Positions 37,298-56,884 of a DNA stretch of 64,000 nt are shown in pieces. Position 1 is the first letter of the stretch. Each line of letters opens with the position of its first letter. The stretch covers positions 1 through 64,000 of the forward strand of contig CAILJB010000064.1 in assembly GCA_903834465.1 (NCBI GenBank), given 5' to 3'. Under the pieces are notes generated by a model that worked only from the letters and a program-made list of their open reading frames with translations, was not told the DNA's origin and searched no databases. The DNA comes from an uncultured Pseudomonadota bacterium (GTDB taxonomy: Bacteria; Pseudomonadota; Gammaproteobacteria; Methylococcales; Methylomonadaceae). A program made the position numbers and the translations under genes.

Positions 37298-37334
37298 CCC
37301 TGCCAATTTTCAACGAAACTGGCAGGGCTTTTGA
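37298..37334 (+). terminator. Intrinsic terminator after the chemoreceptor gene
   Basis: Stem CCCTGCCA / TGGCAGGG around a 14-base loop with a further AA/TT-like extension, followed by CTTTTG. It lies 23 bases after the chemoreceptor stop and just before the convergent HvfA-like genes. Confidence 0.75.
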
Positions 37335-37351: not shown

Positions 37352-37645
37352 TTATTTTTTGGGTTCAGGCGTTTTTACCGAGCTTTCTTTACTTTTTGCA
37401 GCTTCAGTATTTTTACCTTCGTTGTCTTTTGTAGCAGGTTCTGATTTTTTAGCCGCACATGCACCTTCGGCAGTTTTTGGAGCATCCATTTTCATGTTTG
37501 CGCCACATGCCATTTCAGCTTCTGCTAATTGCATATAACCTGACGGTAATTCAGTCACGCCAAACGGATTTACGTCTGCACTCGCAATCCCTGAAATCAA
37601 TGCCGCACTAACAGCAAAAGAAGTTGTAATTTTTTTCATGTTCAA
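37352..37645 (-). CDS. Small HvfA-like secreted peptide with degenerate core (second of pair)
   Basis: 97 residues. Signal peptide (cut after IASA), then DVNPFGVTELPSGYMQLAEAEMACGA, which matches the conserved leader of its larger neighbour. Only two Cys remain in the mature chain (MACG and EGACA). The rest is Lys/Glu/Pro-rich and lacks the EGxCG repeats. It starts 8 bases after the stop of the larger gene and has its own GAGGA ribosome site, so both are on one transcript. It may be a decayed copy or a non-modified partner. By family resemblance it belongs to the HvfA-type metallophore precursors, but the core is weak. Confidence 0.65.
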   Translation of the reverse strand: MNMKKITTSFAVSAALISGIASADVNPFGVTELPSGYMQLAEAEMACGANMKMDAPKTAEGACAAKKSEPATKDNEGKNTEAAKSKESSVKTPEPKK

Positions 37646-37653
37646 TTCCTCGA

Positions 37654-38268
37654 TTATTTTTTAGCAGGATGCACGTCATATAACGGCGAGTTGTCTAATG
37701 CTTTGCCCGTTGATTTCGTTGCACCACACGAACCATCTTTGCCTTTGGTCATTTCACCACAGCCTTGCATGTTTTCGCCGCAACCTTGCATTTTTGCACC
37801 ACATGCGCCTTCTTTGGTTTTAGCATCTGGGCAATTTTTCATATTATCTGCACACGCTGCACCACAACTGCCTTCTTTACCTTTCATATCGCCGCCACAC
37901 GCGCCTTCCTTCATCATTGCACCGTGCATATCGCCGCATGAGCCTTCTTTGCCTTTCATCATCGCACCACAAGAGGATTCCATGCCTTTTTTCATTTTAT
38001 CGCCATCCATCATGTCGCCGCATTTACCTTCGGCAACTTTTGCACCGGCGTTAGATTTTTTACCCGCACATGCGCCTTCAGCGGTTTTGGGTGCGTCCAT
38101 TTTCATGCTTGCGCCGCACGCCATTTCGGCAGCGGCAAGTTGCATATAGCCTGATGATAATTCCGTTGCACCAAACGGATTAGTTTCTGCATTAACAGCG
38201 GTTGCCGCAACGCTAGAAATTAACGCTGCGCCCATCGCAGCAGCAAACGGGGTAGTAATTTTTTTCAT
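37654..38268 (-). CDS. HvfA-like Cys/Met/Gly-rich secreted peptide, candidate RiPP copper metallophore precursor
   Basis: 204 residues. Signal peptide (cut after AVNA), then NPFGATELSSGYMQLAAAEM, the conserved lead of HvfA-type low-complexity proteins. The rest is built from Cys-containing pentads: EGKCG, EGSCG twice, EGACG twice, plus EGACA, DGSCG and two QGCGE, with 13 Cys in all and many Met. In Haemophilus HvfA, EGKCG Cys residues are converted to oxazolone/thioamide copper ligands by a DUF692 (MNIO) enzyme with a DUF2063 partner. Neither enzyme gene lies in this window, so modification would have to be supplied in trans. Copper-related genes follow within 2-6 kb. An AGGAG site precedes the start. 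Confidence 0.75.
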   Translation of the reverse strand: MKKITTPFAAAMGAALISSVAATAVNAETNPFGATELSSGYMQLAAAEMACGASMKMDAPKTAEGACAGKKSNAGAKVAEGKCGDMMDGDKMKKGMESSCGAMMKGKEGSCGDMHGAMMKEGACGGDMKGKEGSCGAACADNMKNCPDAKTKEGACGAKMQGCGENMQGCGEMTKGKDGSCGATKSTGKALDNSPLYDVHPAKK

Positions 38269-38313: not shown

Positions 38314-38335
38314 TCGACACTCAAGCCATTGTCGA
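38314..38335 (-). promoter_or_regulatory. Perfect 6-base dyad upstream of the HvfA-like operon
   Basis: TCGACA-N10-TGTCGA, 46 bases before the start of the larger HvfA-like gene. The spacing suits a dimeric repressor or activator. No regulator gene is adjacent. Confidence 0.4.
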
Positions 38336-38356
38336 ATCATGCTTATCATATCAAAG

Positions 38357-39466
38357 TTATCGCCGTTGCTTTATTTCTTGGCTTAATTGATAGGCAGCCA
38401 TCGCATATAACGGGCTGTGGTTATAGCGAGTAATGACATAAAAATTCGGCAATCCCAACCATAATTCATCGCCATCCAACTGTTCAAACGCGAGTAATTT
38501 CACATTGGTATTGGCAGATATATTTTCATTCGTACTGACATTAACACGACCTAATTGCGCTAAAGTTGAGTTAGGTTTTAAGTCTTTACTTAGAACAGAT
38601 TTGTATTGCGTGCCAATCGCATTGGCGCGAACGGCAATATCTTGACCGCGTTGCCAATCATTTTTTGCAAAATAATTCGCCACGCTGGCAATCGCATCGC
38701 GTGGATTGTGCCAAATATCACGGTGTCCATCGTGTTCAAAATCTTTGGCTAACGCTCTGAAACTGCTGGGCATAAATTGCGGATACCCCATTGCGCCGGC
38801 GTAAGAACCGAGTGGTTCGCGCGGATTCATGTTTTCTTCACGGCATAGCAATAAAAAGTTTTCGAGTTCACTAGTAAAAAAAGCACTGCGGGGCGGATAA
38901 GCAAACGCTAACGTCGCTAAGGCATCAAGGACGCGATGATTGCCCATATTTTTACCGTAGCCGGTTTCTACACCAATAATGGCGACGATAATTTCCGAAG
39001 GCACACCCGTTTGTTGCGACACACTGGTTAATGCTTCTGCATTCTCGCGCCAAAATTTCACCCCACCGTCAATTCTTGCTTCCGTTAGAAAAATTTTGCG
39101 ATATTTATACCAAGGCAATCCTTCAGAAGGTGAGGCGATACGCTTCAAAATGCTTTCTTTGATAACTGCTGATTCCAACAATTTTGTCAATTCAAATTCA
39201 TTGAAATGATGTTTTGTGACCATTTGCCGCACGAAATTTTTAACGTTGGCGTTAATCGATAACGGTGTTGTTATTTCAGGCAACGTTGGTTTTGCAATCG
39301 GTGGTGAGGGTTTTGGTTGAGCAGCAGTCGGTAGTGCAATCTGTTCAGTAAGCGGCACAGTGGTGATTTCACGTTCTGGCGTGGTGCTACATGATGTTAA
39401 ATTTAATGCTGCGGTAATTGTTAGCGCGTAATAAAAATAACGGGGAAAAGTAATCAATCTTTTCAT
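38357..39466 (-). CDS. mltB: Lytic murein transglycosylase B, lipoprotein
   Basis: 369 residues. The N-terminus is a lipoprotein signal with lipobox LTSC (Cys26), so the enzyme is anchored to the outer membrane and faces the periplasm. A Pro-rich linker (about 40-70) leads to the SLT_2 domain. The catalytic Glu is Glu167 in GVETGYGKNMG, followed by ALATLAFAYPPRS and GAMGYPQFMPSS. It cleaves peptidoglycan glycan strands to anhydro-muropeptides. It is transcribed away from the copper cluster and lies 88 bases downstream of the HvfA-like upstream region. The fit to MltB is good in length and motifs. Confidence 0.93.
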   Translation of the reverse strand: MKRLITFPRYFYYALTITAALNLTSCSTTPEREITTVPLTEQIALPTAAQPKPSPPIAKPTLPEITTPLSINANVKNFVRQMVTKHHFNEFELTKLLESAVIKESILKRIASPSEGLPWYKYRKIFLTEARIDGGVKFWRENAEALTSVSQQTGVPSEIIVAIIGVETGYGKNMGNHRVLDALATLAFAYPPRSAFFTSELENFLLLCREENMNPREPLGSYAGAMGYPQFMPSSFRALAKDFEHDGHRDIWHNPRDAIASVANYFAKNDWQRGQDIAVRANAIGTQYKSVLSKDLKPNSTLAQLGRVNVSTNENISANTNVKLLAFEQLDGDELWLGLPNFYVITRYNHSPLYAMAAYQLSQEIKQRR

Positions 39467-40577: not shown

Positions 40578-41198
40578 ATGTCCATTCAAAAACAATGTGT
40601 ATTGCGCCATCGCGCCGAAGGTCATGTCCGATTTCAATTGCCTGCGGAATTATGTTATCGGGATGTTGCCGAAAATGTCGCCGCAAAAATTAAAGCCATT
40701 GACGGTGTTTATCGCGTTAATTTTTATGCTAGACAAGGTAAAGTTTCGATTCGTTTTCAAGAAAACGTGTGTGATTTTAAACAGTTGGTTAAACAATTAT
40801 TTGAGCTATTTGCTGAATTAGAAAAGACTGGTGCGTTAATTATTCAAAATGAAAAAAAGACAAGTGCAATTAAAAAATTAGGCACGAAAGTTAGTGCAAA
40901 AGCCGATAACTTTGCCGTGACACGCTGGTTTAAAGCTAAAACGGTCGAAGCTAAAGAAACATTACAGGCTGCAAAAATTATTACCAAACTCAGTTTAAAA
41001 AAACCAAATGGGCTGATTAAAGATCCTGAAAAAGCCATTATCGATTTTTTGAATGATATTTTGGTGTTGTTTTTAATTCGCACACATTGGGAACACATTA
41101 CAAAATTATGGCTACTCAGTCCGTTTAAATACCGCTACGAGTGGCTCGCTACGTTTTATATGTTCTTCTTGTTAATTCGTTCGCGTAGACCAAAATAA
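40578..41198 (+). CDS. HMA-like domain protein with C-terminal membrane segment
   Basis: 206 residues. The N-terminal 85 residues have a ferredoxin-like HMA fold pattern (RHRAEGHVRFQLP, AIDGVYRVNFYARQGKVSIRF), but there is no CxxC pair, so it is of the metal-free HMA_2 type. A Lys-rich linker (about 85-135) and one C-terminal hydrophobic segment (about 180-200, FYMFFLLI) follow. The following ATPase begins with a similar CxxC-less HMA-like region, so the two probably interact. It is 15 bases upstream of the ATPase and cotranscribed with it. Confidence 0.68.
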   Translation: MSIQKQCVLRHRAEGHVRFQLPAELCYRDVAENVAAKIKAIDGVYRVNFYARQGKVSIRFQENVCDFKQLVKQLFELFAELEKTGALIIQNEKKTSAIKKLGTKVSAKADNFAVTRWFKAKTVEAKETLQAAKIITKLSLKKPNGLIKDPEKAIIDFLNDILVLFLIRTHWEHITKLWLLSPFKYRYEWLATFYMFFLLIRSRRPK

Positions 41199-41213
41199 AA
41201 AAAGGTAACATCA

Positions 41214-43649
41214 GTGACCCACAAAAACTTCCAAATAGTTCACCAACTCGCGCGACGCATTCGGATTACGTCGCCGATTATTAAAAATGACCAAGAACGC
41301 GCGTATATTTTTGAAATTATTTTAAAAAAACGCCCTGAAATTAAGCGTGTCAAAACCGTTTATGAGATTGGTTCTGTCACCATCGAATTTGACCCCGCAG
41401 GTTTGCCGAAAAAGAATTTGCTGATTTTGCTCGATGCTGTTTTAGGCAATATCGCGCACAAAAGCCCCGCATTAGCGCATCACGAACGCAAACATTTTGA
41501 TGGCAAACTGCAAGATATTGATTTAGCTGTCGAAGGAATGAGCTGCGCGTCATGTGCGCTCTTAATTGAAATGGTTTTAAAACGCGACGAGCGTGTGAAA
41601 GAGGCGAGTGTGAATTTCAGCACCTCGACGCTTTCGGTTCAAGGACAATTAAGCAAAGACGATGTGGGGCAATTAGTCAGTCATATTGGTTATACAACCT
41701 ATCCAATGGATACGCTTTCACAACGTAAAAAACTTATCGAAAAAGAACAAAGTCGCGTTGCCACAGCTAAACATCGTTTTATGTGGTCGGCGATTTTAAG
41801 CACGCCCGTGATTATTGCAGGTATGGCAATGGTTACGTCACGCAAACTGCATTGGATGCAACTCGCTTTAACAACGCCCGTGGTGTTTTGGGCAGGCTTT
41901 CCCTTTTTTGCGAAAGCATGGCGGTTAGCTAGGCAACGCGCGGCAAACATGGACTCGCTCATCGCCTTAGGTGTTGGAAGTGCTTACGGTTATAGCTTGC
42001 CTGCATTTTTAAATCGTCGCGGACATTTATATTTTGAAGCGGCGGCGGCGATTATTACTTTCGTTTTACTCGGACGTTATTTAGAAGAACGTGCCAAAGG
42101 CAAAGCAGGCGAGGCAATTCGCCAATTAGTGGATTTGCAACCACAAACGGCAACTCGATTAAAAGGGGATTTGGAAGAAATCGTAGATGTAGATTTGCTC
42201 GAAATCGATGACATCATTTTGGTTCGACCTGGTGAAAAAATTCCAACGGATGGCATCGTTATTTACGGCGTTTCAACGGTTGATGAATCGATGGTCACAG
42301 GTGAAAGTTTGCCTGTTGTGAAAAATGAAGGTTCCAAAGTCATTGGTGGTTGTGTGAATGGAAATGGTGCATTGCGCGTAAAAGTCACTGCAATCGGCAT
42401 GGATACCGTTTTAGCGGGCATCGTTCACATGGTTGACCAAGCGCAATCCACAAAATTACCGATTCAAAAACACGTCGATAGAATTTCAGCCATTTTTGTG
42501 CCGTCGGTGATGGCGTTATCAGCTTTAACGTTGGTTGGTTGGCTTGCGGCAGGCGCGTCATTTGGTTTTGCATTCGGCAACGCAATTACAGTTTTGTTAA
42601 TTGCTTGCCCTTGTGCGTTAGGATTAGCAACCCCTGCGGCAATTATGGTCGGCGCAGGGCAAGCCGCACGCGAAGGCATTTATATTCGCAACGGTGAAAG
42701 TTTAGAAACCGCCGCAAAACTCAACGTTATCGTGTTCGACAAAACAGGCACAATTACCGAAGGCAAACCGAAAGTGACGGACTTGTTAAAACTTTCACGA
42801 TTAAGCGAAGTCAATATCATCAAATTAGCCGCCTCAGCGGAACATAATTCGGAACATTTTTTAGGCAAAGCGATTGTGGCTTACGCTGTCGAAAAAGAAA
42901 TTGAATTAGAAACGTGTACCCATTTCCAAAGCGAAACAGGACGTGGCATTGAAGCCGAGATTGATGGCAAAACTATTTTGCTTGGCAACAAAGCGTGGTT
43001 GATTGAACAAAGCGTTTCAATTGACGGTTTGCAAAATGCGGCAGGTGATTTTGCTTCGCAAGGAAAAACCCCCGTTTTCATGGCAATCAACGGCAAAGAA
43101 GCGGCGGTTTTTGGCATTGCCGACAAAGCGCGACCTGATGCAGCAGCGGCAATTTTACGATTAAAAAATCAAGGGATTGAAACCTTAATTGTCACAGGCG
43201 ACACCGAAAAAACCGCGCTTTATATTGCCGCAAAAGTGGGCATTGAAACCGTGATTGCAAATGCCACGCCTGAGCAAAAATTAAGCGTGATTCGAGACTA
43301 TCAAGCCCAAGGTAAAAAAGTCGGCATGATTGGCGATGGCATCAACGACGCGCCAGCACTTGCGGCGGCAGATGTAGGTTTTGCAATTGGTACAGGAACG
43401 GATGTGGCAATTGAATCAGCAGATATGACGTTGGTTCAGGGTGATATTTCCAAAGTCACAAACGGCATTGAATTAAGCAAAAAAACGATTACTGTCATCA
43501 AACAAAATTTATTTTGGGCATTTGGCTACAACACCATTGCGATTCCCGTTGCGATGGCGGGACGTTTAAACCCGATGATTGCCTCAGCGGCAATGGCACT
43601 AAGTTCTGTGTCGGTGATAGTGAATTCGTTACGTTTAAATAAAAATTAA
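41214..43649 (+). CDS. Cu(I)-type P1B ATPase
   Basis: 811 residues from GTG 41214 with an AAGG ribosome site. Order: a CxxC-less HMA-like region (1-90), an HMA domain with MSCASC (about 102-165), eight membrane spans with the metal-site [12 protein letters not shown] in the sixth, the phosphorylation motif [11 protein letters not shown], and the hinge [20 protein letters not shown]. The late spans carry FGYNTIAIP and [14 protein letters not shown] (YN and MxxSS), the Cu(I) set of class P1B-1. The nucleotide-site motif reads SEHFLGKAI rather than SEHPLAKAI, so the usual His-Pro is changed. It exports Cu(I) across the inner membrane, either for detoxification or to load periplasmic or membrane copper enzymes. 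It is followed after 13 bases by a TauE/SafE protein. Confidence 0.93.
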
Positions 43650-43662
43650 AAAAGGAGCTTTT

Positions 43663-44490
43663 ATGGATCATTCAACAATGGATCATAGTATGCACGTCAT
43701 GGCGGCTTCAGGCGGCTTTGATTATGGCTTGGCGTTTATGGCAGGATTACTCGGCAGCGGTCACTGTCTTGGAATGTGTGGCGCGTTGGTGTCGGGTTAT
43801 TTTATGAATTCGACCGCGACACGCAGTTATTTACCGTATTTGTTTTATCAAATTGCCCGAATCAGTATTTACACAATAGTAGGATTTGCGGCTGCGGCAT
43901 TAGGTGTTGTTTTAGTTTCAAGCGGCATTTTCGGCAAAGTACAAAGTATTCTACAAATGTTCATTGGCGCGTTGGTTATTATTTTAGCGTTTGGGATTTT
44001 GGGCTGGATTCCGTTTCAAGGTTCGATTCGTTTGTTGCCGATGGCGTTTATTCGTAAAGGTTACGCAGCGTCACGCACAAAAGGCGGTATTATCGGCGCG
44101 TCATTAGCAGGCTTGATGAATGGTTTAATGCCTTGTCCGTTGACGTTTGCGATGGCGGTCAAAGCGACTTCTGCCCCGACAATTTTAGACGGCGGTTTGT
44201 TAATGCTTACGTTTGGCGCGGGAACATTGCCGACAATGCTATTTATCAGCGTTGCCTTTGGAAAAATGCACGCAAATTTTCGTGGTTTGATGCTTAAATT
44301 TGCGGCAGTGATTATGATTGTGATGGGCTTAAATACCATTTACATGGGCTTATCGTTTTATACGATGGAAACGTTTATGCACCACAATTTCGTCCATGAC
44401 ATTAAAAACGAAATTGATGCCGCTATCGCGTTTTTGATGCAAATGCTTGAATACTACAAAGGTCTGCTCGAACATTTACAAAACAAATAA
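43663..44490 (+). CDS. TauE/SafE-family membrane protein with Met/His-rich start and HCLGMCG motif
   Basis: 275 residues, about six or seven membrane spans. The N-terminus MDHSTMDHSMHVM is rich in Met and His, as in periplasmic copper-binding sites. The first span carries GSGHCLGMCG, the second half-site is LMNGLMPCPLTFAM, and the C-terminal loops hold more His and Met (METFMHHNFVH). A paralogue lies at 8965-9696. Direct linkage to a Cu(I) ATPase (13 bases) suggests a copper role rather than sulfite export. An AAAGGAG ribosome site precedes the start. The family is firm; the substrate is inference. Confidence 0.82.
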   Translation: MDHSTMDHSMHVMAASGGFDYGLAFMAGLLGSGHCLGMCGALVSGYFMNSTATRSYLPYLFYQIARISIYTIVGFAAAALGVVLVSSGIFGKVQSILQMFIGALVIILAFGILGWIPFQGSIRLLPMAFIRKGYAASRTKGGIIGASLAGLMNGLMPCPLTFAMAVKATSAPTILDGGLLMLTFGAGTLPTMLFISVAFGKMHANFRGLMLKFAAVIMIVMGLNTIYMGLSFYTMETFMHHNFVHDIKNEIDAAIAFLMQMLEYYKGLLEHLQNK

Positions 44491-49165: not shown

Positions 49166-49918
49166 ATGTCGGCAAATCGCTCACCTCGAGTATTCTTGGC
49201 ATATACAGGGGAAAAGGCGCGAATTGTCCGTGCTTATGACTACCTCATCCTCGTATTGGCATTATTTTTATTTATCGGTTCTTTTCACCTGCATTTTGCC
49301 CTCACCGTTGGCGACTGGGATTTTTGGGTGGATTGGAAAGACAGACAATGGTGGCCTTTAGTCACGCCACTCATCGGTATCACTTTTCCAGCGGCAGTAC
49401 AGGCGGTGTTGTGGACTAACTTTCGCTTGCCGTTAGGAGCTACGCTTTGTGTAGCTTGCCTATCCATAGGCACTTGGATTACCCGCATCTTCGCTTACCA
49501 TTACTGGAATTATTTTCCCATCAACATGGTGTTACCTTCTACGATGATGCCGAGTGCATTATTCCTGGATGCCATTTTGATGATGAGCAACAGTTTGACC
49601 GTGACTGCTATTTTTGGAGGTTCAGGCTTTGCGCTGTTATTTTTCCCCAGTAACTGGCCTATCTTCGCCATGTTCCATTTGCCGATTGAAGCAGGCAATA
49701 GCCAATTGACGCTAGCGGATATGTTTGGCTTTCAATACATCCGCACAGGCATGCCAGAGTATCTTCGCATCATTGAACGCGGCACACTACGCACTTATGG
49801 GCAGGTTGCAACACCGCTCGCGGCATTTTGTTCGGCTCTGTTTTGCACGTTGATGTACGCCTTATGGTGGCATATTGGATTATGGTTTGCCACGACCCGT
49901 TATCTCAAAAAAATTTGA
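49166..49918 (+). CDS. pxmA: Copper membrane monooxygenase subunit A, pXMO type
   Basis: 250 residues, about six or seven membrane spans. PmoA-family segments are clear: TVGDWDFWVDWKDRQWW, TFPAAVQAVLW, YFPINMVLPSTMMPSALFLDA, FPSNWPIFAMFHLP and YIRTGMPEYLRIIERGTLRTYG. The order A-B-C with A first, rather than C-A-B, identifies the pxm operon of gammaproteobacterial methanotrophs, whose substrate is not settled (methane, other small alkanes or ammonia). PmoA-family proteins form the membrane core next to PmoC. An AGGAG ribosome site precedes the ATG. pxmB follows after 10 bases. Confidence 0.93.
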   Translation: MSANRSPRVFLAYTGEKARIVRAYDYLILVLALFLFIGSFHLHFALTVGDWDFWVDWKDRQWWPLVTPLIGITFPAAVQAVLWTNFRLPLGATLCVACLSIGTWITRIFAYHYWNYFPINMVLPSTMMPSALFLDAILMMSNSLTVTAIFGGSGFALLFFPSNWPIFAMFHLPIEAGNSQLTLADMFGFQYIRTGMPEYLRIIERGTLRTYGQVATPLAAFCSALFCTLMYALWWHIGLWFATTRYLKKI

Positions 49919-49928
49919 AGGAGAACTG

Positions 49929-51236
49929 ATGATGAAAACCTCATTACTTAAAAAATCCCATCAAGAAAACTCCTTGCAAACCGCTCAGTTAAAAGAGAGG
50001 TCTGAGAGTCCTTTAAACTGGTTGTTGCTGTTAGGCATTGTTATCACGATTTATATGCTCGGCATTCAGTCCGCTATGGCGCATGGTGAAAAAAACTTAG
50101 AGCCTTATGTCCGAATGCGTACTATTCAATGGTATGACGTGCAATGGTCAAAGCAAAAACTCAATGTCAATGATGAAGTCACCGTGACGGGTAAATTTCA
50201 TGTTGCAGAGGACTGGCCGATTAGCGTACCTAAACCTGATGCCACGTTTCTAAACATCTCAACGCCAGGGCCTGTGCTGATTCGGACTGAACGTTATTTG
50301 AACGGTAAGCCCTATATGAATTCAGTCGCTTTGCAACCTGGCGGCGATTATGATTTTAAAGTGGTACTCAAAGGGCGTTTGCCAGGACGTTATCACATCC
50401 ATACCTTTTTTAATCTGAGTGATGCTGGACAAGTCATGGGACCTGGTACATGGCTGGATATTGGTGGAAACGCTGCCGATTTTAAAAACAATGTCCAAAC
50501 CCTCAATGGCGAGACGGTTAATATGGAAACTTACGGTCTAGGCAACGGCATTTTCTGGCACAGCTTTTGGGCTTTACTGGGAACAGGCTGGTTACTTTGG
50601 TGGGTACGCCGACCTTTATTTATTGCGCGTTACAGGATGTTGCAAATAGGTTTGGAAGAAGAGCTGATTACACCGTTGGACAAAAATATCGGGAAAGCCA
50701 TGTTAATCGGAGTTCCTGTGCTGGTGTTTGGTTTTTATTTCATGACGGTTAATCAATATCCAAAAACGATTCCACTACAGGCTTCGCTAGACCAGATTTT
50801 ACCCTTGACCGCCAAGGTGAATGCAGGTGAGGTTGATGTGGAAACCTTACGGGCAGAATACCACGTCTCTGAAAGAGCGATGACGCTTATGCTGAAAATC
50901 AAAAATGGCAGTGACAAGCCTATTCAAATTGCTGAATTTGCTACGGGTGGTGTACGTTTTCTGAAAAAAGGGATTTTAGCACCCGACCACAGTAATACAG
51001 ACAGTCTGGTTGCACGGGAAGGATTAGCACTGGACAATCCCGCACCTATACAAGCAGGCGAAGAACGCCAGGTGACGTTAGTTGCTAAGGATGTCGCTTG
51101 GGAATCGGAACGTTTAGATGGTCTCATCAATGATGCTGACAGTCGAATCGGCGGTTTGCTGTTTTTTTACGATGACTTAATCGGCGAGCGTTTTATCTCC
51201 AGTATCACTGCCGCTGTGATTCCTAAATTTAATTAA
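49929..51236 (+). CDS. pxmB: Copper membrane monooxygenase subunit B, pXMO type
   Basis: 435 residues from ATG 49929 with a GAAGGAG site; the frame extends further up into pxmA without support. Signal-like first span (about 30-51), then the mature start AHGEKN. Copper ligands by alignment to Methylococcus PmoB: the N-terminal His (His52) and the HIH pair (His156, His158) are kept. Of the second pair, the position equal to His48 is Gln67 (TIQWYD) and the position equal to His72 is kept (His91, KFHVAEDWP). Two cupredoxin domains flank two membrane spans (about 215-270). The last residues (AAVIPKFN) align with the end of PmoB. It lies in the periplasm-facing part of the complex. Confidence 0.93.
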   Translation: MMKTSLLKKSHQENSLQTAQLKERSESPLNWLLLLGIVITIYMLGIQSAMAHGEKNLEPYVRMRTIQWYDVQWSKQKLNVNDEVTVTGKFHVAEDWPISVPKPDATFLNISTPGPVLIRTERYLNGKPYMNSVALQPGGDYDFKVVLKGRLPGRYHIHTFFNLSDAGQVMGPGTWLDIGGNAADFKNNVQTLNGETVNMETYGLGNGIFWHSFWALLGTGWLLWWVRRPLFIARYRMLQIGLEEELITPLDKNIGKAMLIGVPVLVFGFYFMTVNQYPKTIPLQASLDQILPLTAKVNAGEVDVETLRAEYHVSERAMTLMLKIKNGSDKPIQIAEFATGGVRFLKKGILAPDHSNTDSLVAREGLALDNPAPIQAGEERQVTLVAKDVAWESERLDGLINDADSRIGGLLFFYDDLIGERFISSITAAVIPKFN

Positions 51237-51261
51237 CTTACTCAGCTAAGAGGTTACTATC

Positions 51262-52047
51262 ATGGCTACGACTACCGAAAAAATCAGCGAACAAATGAGG
51301 CTAATAACACAACAGGGCAAAATGCCGCCTTGGTATTTAAAAGACTTATACCGCTATCTTTCAGCCTTTGCCGTTCTCACTGTTATTTATATAGGATTTC
51401 GCATTTATCAGGGTGAGTTCGCCGTTTCTACGGGATTGGACTCAACTGACCCTGTTTTTGAGACGTACTGGATGCGGCTGTTTAACTTCAACGTCACCTT
51501 CGTGACCTTGTTTGCGGGTCTTTCGTGGGGATATTTATGGTTTTCCAGAGATAAAAATTTGGATACGCTGGAACCCAAAGAAGAAATCCGCCGATATTTT
51601 ACGCTGACCATGTGGATTAGCGTTTATACCTTTGCGGTATATTGGGCAGGTAGTTATTTTGCGGAACAAGATAATTCCTGGCATCAGGTCTCCGTCCGTG
51701 ATACCCCGTTCACAGCAAACCATATCATTGAGTTTTATTTTAACTTTCCGATGTATGTAATTCTGGGCGGCTGTGCCTGGTTATACGCAAGAACCCGTTT
51801 GCCGCTGTATGCCAAGGGTATATCGCTGCCTTTGACGCTGGCGGTCTTCGGACCATTCATGATACTTGTCAGCGTTGGCTTCAACGAATGGGGGCATACT
51901 TTTTGGTATAGGGAAGAGTTTTTCGCCGCCCCCATACACTGGGGTTTTGTGATTGGAGTTTGGTTTGCTCATGGTGTCGGCGGTATTTTGCTGCAAGGTG
52001 TTACCCGCTTGATTGAATTGCTCGATGAGCTGGAAGAAGCCGCTTAA
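51262..52047 (+). CDS. pxmC: Copper membrane monooxygenase subunit C, pXMO type
   Basis: 261 residues, about six membrane spans. Metal ligands proposed for PmoC are all present: Asp137, His141 and His154 (QDNSWHQVSVRDTPFTANH), and the second set Asn208, His212 and His226 (FNEWGHTFWYREEFFAAPIH). The likely copper active site in the membrane is thus complete, so the enzyme should be functional. It is the last gene of pxmABC, starting 25 bases after pxmB with a GAGG site, and is followed by a strong terminator. Confidence 0.93.
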   Translation: MATTTEKISEQMRLITQQGKMPPWYLKDLYRYLSAFAVLTVIYIGFRIYQGEFAVSTGLDSTDPVFETYWMRLFNFNVTFVTLFAGLSWGYLWFSRDKNLDTLEPKEEIRRYFTLTMWISVYTFAVYWAGSYFAEQDNSWHQVSVRDTPFTANHIIEFYFNFPMYVILGGCAWLYARTRLPLYAKGISLPLTLAVFGPFMILVSVGFNEWGHTFWYREEFFAAPIHWGFVIGVWFAHGVGGILLQGVTRLIELLDELEEAA

Positions 52048-55503: not shown

Positions 55504-55788
55504 ATGAATATTTCTATGACTTTAAACCCCGAAAATTTACTTTCCTTTTCACCACTGCATCGTTTGCAATGGGAAGAAGCTCAACAAAAAACCGTCATTT
55601 TGTATCCCGAAGGGATGGTTGAACTGAATCAAAGTTCAGCAGAAATTTTGAAACTTTGCGACGGTTCGCGCCAACTCGCGCAACTCGTACAAGAATTAGA
55701 AACAAAATTTGAAACGACCGGTTTAACCGATGATATTACCGCTTTTTTAGAGGTTGCCTTAAAAAATGGCTGGATTACTCAAAACTAA
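55504..55788 (+). CDS. pqqD: PQQ biosynthesis protein PqqD
   Basis: 94 residues from ATG 55504, with ATG 55516 as an alternative. PqqD is the RiPP recognition element that binds the PqqA precursor peptide and hands it to PqqE. Family features: a core ending [27 protein letters not shown] and the C-terminal helix [12 protein letters not shown]. It overlaps pqqE by 23 bases. pqqA, pqqB and pqqC, which normally precede it, are not here; the 66 bases upstream hold no pqqA-like Glu-x3-Tyr peptide. Confidence 0.9.
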
Positions 55789-56884
55789 TACCCCACCACG
55801 TTGGTTGCTCGCAGAGCTGACCTATTCGTGTCCATTGCAATGTCCGTATTGCTCGAATCCGCTCGATTACACCGCGTATAAAAATGAACTTAGCACCGAC
55901 GATTGGAAGCGCGTTTTAACCCAAGCGCGAAAAATGGGCGCGGTGCAACTCGGTTTTTCGGGCGGTGAACCGCTGACACGCCCTGATTTAGTTGAATTAG
56001 TGCAATACGCACGAGAATTAGGTTATTACTCAAATTTGATTACGTCAGGTTATGGGTTAACTGAAGAAAAAATTATTCAACTCAAAACCGCAGGTTTAGA
56101 CCATATCCAAGTCAGTATTCAAGCCAGCTCGCAAGAATTAAACGACCATATTGCTGGAACAGCCTCATTTGAACATAAACAAAATGTGGCACGTTTAGTA
56201 AAAAAACACGGTTATCCGATGGTGTTATGCGTGGTACTGCATCGGGAAAATATCCACCAAATGCCAGAAATTTTAGAAATGGCAGAAGCGTTAGGCGCAG
56301 ATTATTTAGAACTTGCCAACACGCAATATTACGGTTGGGCGCACATCAATCGAGATTTATTGTTGCCAACTAAAGAGCAATTCGAAACCGCCGAAGCCAT
56401 CGCGCAAGCGTTTAAAGAAAAAGTCGCTGGTAAAATGAAAATTTATTATGTCGTACCAGACTTTTACGAAGACCGTCCGAAAGCGTGTATGAATGGTTGG
56501 GCAACCACGTTTTTAACCATTGCGCCAGACGGCATGGCTCTGCCGTGTCATTCAGCGCGAGAATTGCCTAATTTTGACTGTCCAAATGTGAAAGATTTTA
56601 GTGTGTCTGAAATTTGGAATGATTCGAAAGCGTTTAATTTTTTCCGTGGTTTTGAATGGATGCAAGAACCCTGTCGCAGTTGCGATGAAAAAGAAAAAGA
56701 TTTTGGTGGTTGTCGTTGTCAAGCCTATTTGCTCACTGGCGACGCGAGTGCAACTGACCCTGTGTGCAGTAAATCGCCGCAGCATGGCGTGATTGATGAA
56801 TTGATTACTTCAGCGCGAACTTCAGCATTATCCGATGATGAAAAACCATTAGTTTTTCGGAATAGTAAAAATTCACGACGATAA
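55766..56884 (+). CDS. pqqE: PQQ biosynthesis radical SAM enzyme PqqE
   Basis: 372 residues. It forms the Glu-Tyr carbon-carbon cross-link in PqqA, the first step toward PQQ. The radical SAM cluster motif is Cys22-x3-Cys26-x2-Cys29 (CPLQCPYC), followed by [14 protein letters not shown] (SAM binding). The C-terminal SPASM domain has [17 protein letters not shown] and [17 protein letters not shown], which hold the auxiliary Fe-S clusters. It overlaps pqqD by 23 bases. PQQ is the cofactor of methanol and other alcohol dehydrogenases, which fits the pxm operon 4 kb away. Confidence 0.95.

Follow-up and report, generated by a model that had tools for sequence, protein, structure and literature searches.

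The closest described systems to the locus reported here are those of HvfA/oxazolin, fontiphorin (FonA) and gonophorin (PMC13097082): their precursors bear signal peptides (in our case a reading by eye) and, as here, are Cys-rich and contain EGxCG repeats, and they are paired with one HvfB-type MNIO and one HvfC-type DUF2063 protein, with the class-specific RR and DF residues. The HvfA-type product has been revised to a 5-thiooxazole (PMC13097082), an assignment that replaces the oxazolone/thioamide chemistry given in our initial annotation. Copper binding and detoxification have been reported for the class (PMC13097082), and by analogy the same might be expected of P1 and P2, the two peptides described below. 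Unlike in these systems, the precursors here lie apart from the enzymes, the repeats are irregular EG[S/A]CG units in a Met-rich context, a repeat-less tandem paralogue is present, no DoxX gene was found and P1 does not reach the HvfA cut-off of NCBIfam. Bulbicupramide (Mmr) of Microbulbifer (PMC12538549) likewise combines a conserved leader and a variable number of EGKCG units with an MNIO and a DUF2063 protein, but its genes form one cluster and its Cys count is 5-8. Methanobactin (MbnABC) is also an MNIO-made copper peptide of methanotrophs, but is made from a short precursor by MbnB/MbnC-type enzymes, and an MbnB-type enzyme was not found in the genome studied here. Finally, Antoine et al. 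(2025, PMC12452194) had already recorded stand-alone bufferin/oxazolin precursors and raised the possibility of their modification by enzymes from a different locus, adding that precursor genes are seldom found in genomes without MNIO and PME1 genes. The genus studied here is a clear case of such stand-alone precursors; going beyond that study, the split is seen throughout a genus whose sister genera are linked, and in two genomes HvfB and HvfC are also apart from each other.

The window is a stretch of 64,000 nt on contig C64 of a fragmented 2.82-Mb assembly that is 97.3% complete. The precursor pair occupies positions 37352-38268 on its minus strand:

37654..38268, minus strand: P1, HvfA-like precursor of 204 aa with 13 Cys and 20 Met
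37352..37639, minus strand: P2, paralogue of P1, 95 aa with 2 Cys; same signal and leader, a block MACGANMKMDAPKTAEGACA, and no strict EGxCG repeat

Both ORFs were found in place, with P2 14 nt downstream of P1, and they share the leader NPFG[A/V]TEL[S/P]SGYMQLA; thus, the earlier description of two linked peptides with a common leader holds, "secreted" being a reading of the signal peptide by eye. P1 runs from a Sec-type signal peptide (approximately residues 1-28, by eye) through the leader NPFGATELSSGYMQLA and a Cys-rich part to the tail LDNSPLYDVHPAKK. Its orthologues show, again by eye, an MKK start, a hydrophobic stretch and an ANAE-type boundary, and the leader is conserved in an alignment of 22 of them. 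The count of strict EGxCG units is five, as first annotated (EGKCG at residue 80, EGSCG at 108, EGACG at 121, EGSCG at 132 and EGACG at 153), accompanied by the near-units EGACA at 64 and DGSCG at 178; the units are mostly EG[S/A]CG, their spacing is irregular and the core is rich in Met. In 20,000 shuffles of mature P1 the count reached at most 2. The third position of the five units is K once, S twice and A twice, which had been taken as a departure from HvfA; the same variation occurs in enzyme-linked relatives, and FonBC processes Ala at this position as well as at position 5 (PMC13097082). The start of P2 is better read as the ATG at 37639 than as the listed TTG at 37645, which adds two residues. 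The paralogue had been said to have lost the repeats: the strict EGxCG units are indeed gone, but EGACA and a leader-proximal MACGANMKM block remain ahead of a charged, Lys/Glu/Ala-rich tail. At the C-terminus of P1 (window 37657-37700), the tail LDNSPLYDVHPxKK is common to most P1 proteins of the genus, unlike the end DxAAG[K/E/H] frequently seen in the enzyme-linked relatives.

Formal family models capture these peptides poorly. Pfam has no family for P1 or P2, and the NCBIfam HvfA equivalog NF050188 matches weakly, with P1 at 18.4 bits against a cut-off of 95 bits and P2 without a match; P1 is therefore not filed as an HvfA equivalog. Enzyme-linked relatives of P1 also fall short of this cut-off (21.9-39.9 bits), from which the model appears narrow. 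The HvfA-like identity proposed initially nevertheless stands on other features, namely the leader, the repeats, the hvfB-linked orthologues in 39 of 40 family genomes and the HvfB/HvfC pair in the genome. When compared with the EGKCG/Lys-Cys captophorin class, P1 has the several EGxCG-type repeats after a conserved leader and the genome has the HvfB-type MNIO and HvfC-type DUF2063 genes; the position directly upstream of the MNIO gene, which is usual for the precursor though not universal, is absent here. No match to DUF2282 (Bufferin 1) was found in P1, P2 or elsewhere in the genome. We place P1 and P2 with the known EGKCG captophorins, as a trans-encoded variant that includes a paralogue lacking the repeats.

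The statement that the peptides lack modifying enzymes is true of their neighborhood, where no DUF692 or DUF2063 gene was found, but not of the genome. The initial annotation had named the absence of any MNIO gene as the outcome that would speak against it; the genome-wide search gave exactly one MNIO/DUF692 gene (contig C78, 1326-2153; PF05114, 362.6 bits), of HvfB type, and exactly one DUF2063 gene (C78, 2150-2884; 94 bits). The two are intact and overlap by 4 nt. The MNIO scores 442 bits against NF003818 HvfB (cut-off 360) and the DUF2063 protein 289 bits against NF050145 HvfC (cut-off 142). Their closest solved structures are 3BWW (251.6 bits) and 3DEE (46.5 bits), respectively, identified as an MNIO and a PME1 protein of this pathway type (PMC13097082). 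The His/Glu/Asp motifs conserved in the MNIO family are intact. Lys-Cys MNIOs are marked by the residues corresponding to R15/R16 and D249/F250 of FonB (PMC13097082); we equate with these, by motif, GLGLRR and ERDFN, both present in our MNIO and in 55 and 56, respectively, of 57 family proteins. The Bufferin 2 (Cys-Lys) class has an Asp after the catalytic ERD, where this enzyme reads ERDF. No DoxX (HvfD-like) gene was found in the genome, nor any further HvfA-like precursor: only P1 and P2 match. As DUF2282 is also missing, they are the only candidate substrates found. At the end of C78, an IS605/IS200-type TnpB gene lies directly upstream of hvfB (L001, 18-1160).

We searched 101 genomes, finding P1 relatives in 84 and MNIO genes in 97; HvfA-like captophorin-type systems are present in nearly the whole family. 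In the other genera of the family, among them Methylovulum, Crenothrix, Methylobacter and Methyloglobulus, 39 of 40 genomes have the precursor immediately upstream of hvfB, which hvfC usually follows; the single exception is G036. In the other families of the order a precursor was detected in 25 genomes, and all 25 show the same arrangement (further unlinked precursor-like matches in some linked genomes were left out of these counts). In the window's own genus, which includes the assembly labelled UBA10906, 16 genomes contain both genes, and linkage is found in none of them. Thus, the separation of substrate from enzyme is genus-wide and rare among relatives; the contrast gives a Fisher p of 5e-16, in a calculation that ignores shared ancestry, such that the split may be a single inherited event. 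Within the region that matches, P1 itself shares about 70% identity with the linked orthologues from Methylovulum, Crenothrix and Methyloglobulus. Throughout the genus, precursors and enzymes sit inside different contigs among unrelated neighbors, including in the well-assembled G010 and G004, and P2 adjoins P1 in 10 of 17 genomes. In G005 and G015 the dispersal goes further: hvfC is on yet another contig, where it keeps its usual 142-aa and 130-aa neighbors while hvfB is gone, giving three separate loci for precursor, HvfB and HvfC (L226 on C2, L086 on C30 and L067 on C8 in G005; L228, L096 and L078 in G015). In G005, P1 is down to 113 aa and has few repeats, and the hvfC match of G015 contains one in-frame TAG. 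A second HvfA-like precursor type, beside sigma/anti-sigma-like or DoxX-like genes, occurs in G001 (L081, 4301-4657, contig C27) and G015 (L096, 2567-2857, contig C25) and is absent from the genome of the window.

Around the pair we note three further features:

38314..38350, minus strand: promoter-like element of P1, with TATGAT at 38350-38345 and then the dyad TCGACAATGGCTTGAGTGTCGA at 38335-38314
38357..39466, minus strand: SLT_2 lytic transglycosylase gene (MltB-like), directly upstream of P1 and the usual neighbor of the precursor in the genus
37298..37327, minus strand: inverted repeat CCCTGCCA...TGGCAGGG and, after it, a short T-rich stretch; terminator-like by eye

The dyad has the form TCGACA-N10-TGTCGA, the element lying 46-82 nt upstream of P1, and is a candidate operator or RNA hairpin. 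A TCGAYA...TRTCGA dyad preceded by a TTTGGTATnATA-like element was also seen upstream of most precursors of the genus and some linked relatives (L136, L113, L103); the motif score alone is not far above background, with chance matches not negligible. As some linked relatives have a similar element, the precursor seems to have retained a promoter of its own. By eye, no dyad of this type was seen upstream of hvfB, and a regulatory element shared between P1 and hvfB was accordingly rejected. Terminator and promoter scans returned only near-background matches; the inverted repeat, which lies downstream of both P2 and a convergent chemotaxis gene, went uncalled as its 14-nt loop exceeds the limits of the terminator scan.

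The position of the enzyme genes gives some indication of how the split arose. In G003, G009, G013 and G016, drawn from the two subgroups of the genus, 12-13 nt separate mnmE from the start of hvfB behind it, and in G006 and G012 mnmE is also directly upstream; elsewhere in the genus the neighbor is hemL, a DEAD-box helicase gene or an IS. The occurrence of the mnmE arrangement in both subgroups points to a probable relocation of hvfBC behind mnmE in their common ancestor, with later moves in several lineages. The precursor, for its part, is next to the MltB-like gene in most species and to flagellar genes in a four-species subgroup. In the MNIO tree, 57 captophorin-type enzymes separate from other MNIOs with support of 100/100, with eight MNIOs of relatives that have ERDD falling outside this clade; the tree is compatible with the genus as either a clade or a grade, and one or more losses of linkage both fit. 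The IS605-type tnpB was considered as the cause of the split and rejected, for the split is found in all genomes of the genus and several hvfB genes follow mnmE with no IS.

P1, MNIO and P2 are all under purifying selection, with median genus-wide dN/dS of 0.11, 0.07 and 0.185, respectively. Given this selection, and as no other substrate was found in the genome, the simplest reading is that the C78 pair modifies P1 in trans. Our favored account, in which we have good confidence, is that P1 serves as precursor of a Lys-Cys-class (EGKCG/HvfA-type) captophorin, as P2 perhaps does too, with the maturation enzymes encoded in trans; as judged from sequence, the distant HvfBC probably modifies P1, and P1 probably buffers periplasmic copper. 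In the proposed mechanism, P1 would be translated in the cytoplasm, where its NPFGxTELxSGYMQLA leader would bind HvfC and HvfB would turn the EGxCG cysteines into 5-thiooxazoles; the peptide would then be exported via Sec to the periplasm, there to bind Cu(I) and buffer copper in a cell with genes for pXMO and for pMMO, a copper enzyme. The relocation of hvfBC would have left the precursor with its own promoter and dyad. P2, a tandem copy without the repeats, would still dock on HvfC and offer at most one or two modifiable cysteines.

The role of P2 is where an alternative, itself compatible with this account of P1, has the most room. The conserved parts of P2 are the leader and the block EMxCGAxMKM (dN/dS of 0.09 for the two), while the remainder drifts; EGACA is also lost in G003, G007, G009, G010 and G014, and some species retain a single Cys. 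A FonA peptide with one repeat was left unmodified by FonBC while one with two repeats was modified (PMC13097082), so P2 may still dock on HvfC while being modified poorly; it could act as a minor substrate or compete for HvfC. Taken to its end, this would make P2 a leader-only competitor or tuner on the HvfC recognition domain that limits or times the modification of P1. We regard this as rather unlikely: P2 is missing from 7 of the 17 genomes of the genus with P1, MxCGAxMKM is itself a plausible Cu(I) site, and the P2 of the window retains EGACA, with FonBC accepting Ala after Cys (PMC13097082).

It is unlikely, to a somewhat greater degree, that P1 and P2 work unmodified as Met/Cys-rich periplasmic metal-binding peptides, with HvfBC a relic or serving another substrate. 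The separation of the genes in 16 of 16 genomes, the Met-rich core of P1 with its 20 Met and the situation in G005, where a shortened, repeat-poor P1 coexists with dispersed HvfB and HvfC, would all be in keeping with this. However, HvfBC has been kept in the genus, with an HvfB under strong constraint (dN/dS of 0.07) and intact active-site motifs; no alternative substrate was found in the genome; and the leader, whose only expected role is with the enzymes, ranks among the best-conserved segments of both peptides. Doubtful, too, is the more radical proposal that P2 is a dedicated "leader without core", an erstwhile captophorin precursor stripped of its repeats that would control HvfBC in trans; were it true, the supply of substrate, enzyme and inhibitor would be set from separate loci rather than from one operon.

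A methanotroph host with pMMO-type and pXMO genes, and peptides with signal-like sequences, might instead evoke methanobactin-like chalkophores secreted for copper uptake; the initial annotation had seen the peptide as a possible copper buffer or carrier alongside or instead of methanobactin. The chalkophore reading is very improbable, and a methanobactin partner is unsupported, as the sole MNIO scores 442 bits as HvfB and a mere 52 bits as MbnB (cut-off 325), and published EGKCG products are tied to copper detoxification (PMC13097082). That the separation is an artefact of assembly or binning, with the genes adjacent in the real genomes, is scarcely credible even though most genomes of the genus are fragmented metagenome assemblies and our MNIO gene is 1.3 kb from its contig end, since G010 has its precursor at 78 kb within a contig of 215 kb, between genes that are unrelated to it, the MNIO genes likewise lie 57 kb into 114 kb (G010) and 200 kb into 221 kb (G004), contradicting it directly for these two genomes, and the neighborhoods recur in independent assemblies.

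Given that RiPP mining usually looks beside enzymes, a genus-wide trans arrangement represents a class of substrates that such mining misses. The linked and split sister genera also form natural pairs for asking why such genes stay together and how regulation shifts after their parting. The hosts are lake methanotrophs of the order Methylococcales, in which copper handling governs methane oxidation.

The wider neighborhood of the pair includes several genes of related interest. The SLT_2 lytic transglycosylase gene is outside the copper-peptide system, and the other flank is occupied by the convergent chemotaxis receptor gene. At 40578-44490, 3 kb from P1 and P2, the window encodes a P-type ATPase that carries HMA domains, and the flanking genes code for small putative metal-trafficking proteins and for a DsbD_2-family protein; this proximity is no proof of a functional link, and part of the same neighborhood recurs beside the precursor in G003, G004 and G011. 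Two AMO/pmoA-family (PF02461) genes are present in the genome, one on C91, taken as pMMO, and one, pXMO-like, in the window; their presence, again, is no proof of a link to P1 and P2. The pXMO-like gene is followed by pmoB- and pmoC-like genes (49166-52047, the pXMO order A-B-C). Further along, at 55766-56884, the gene for a PqqE-like radical SAM/SPASM protein precedes a TonB-dependent-receptor-like gene.
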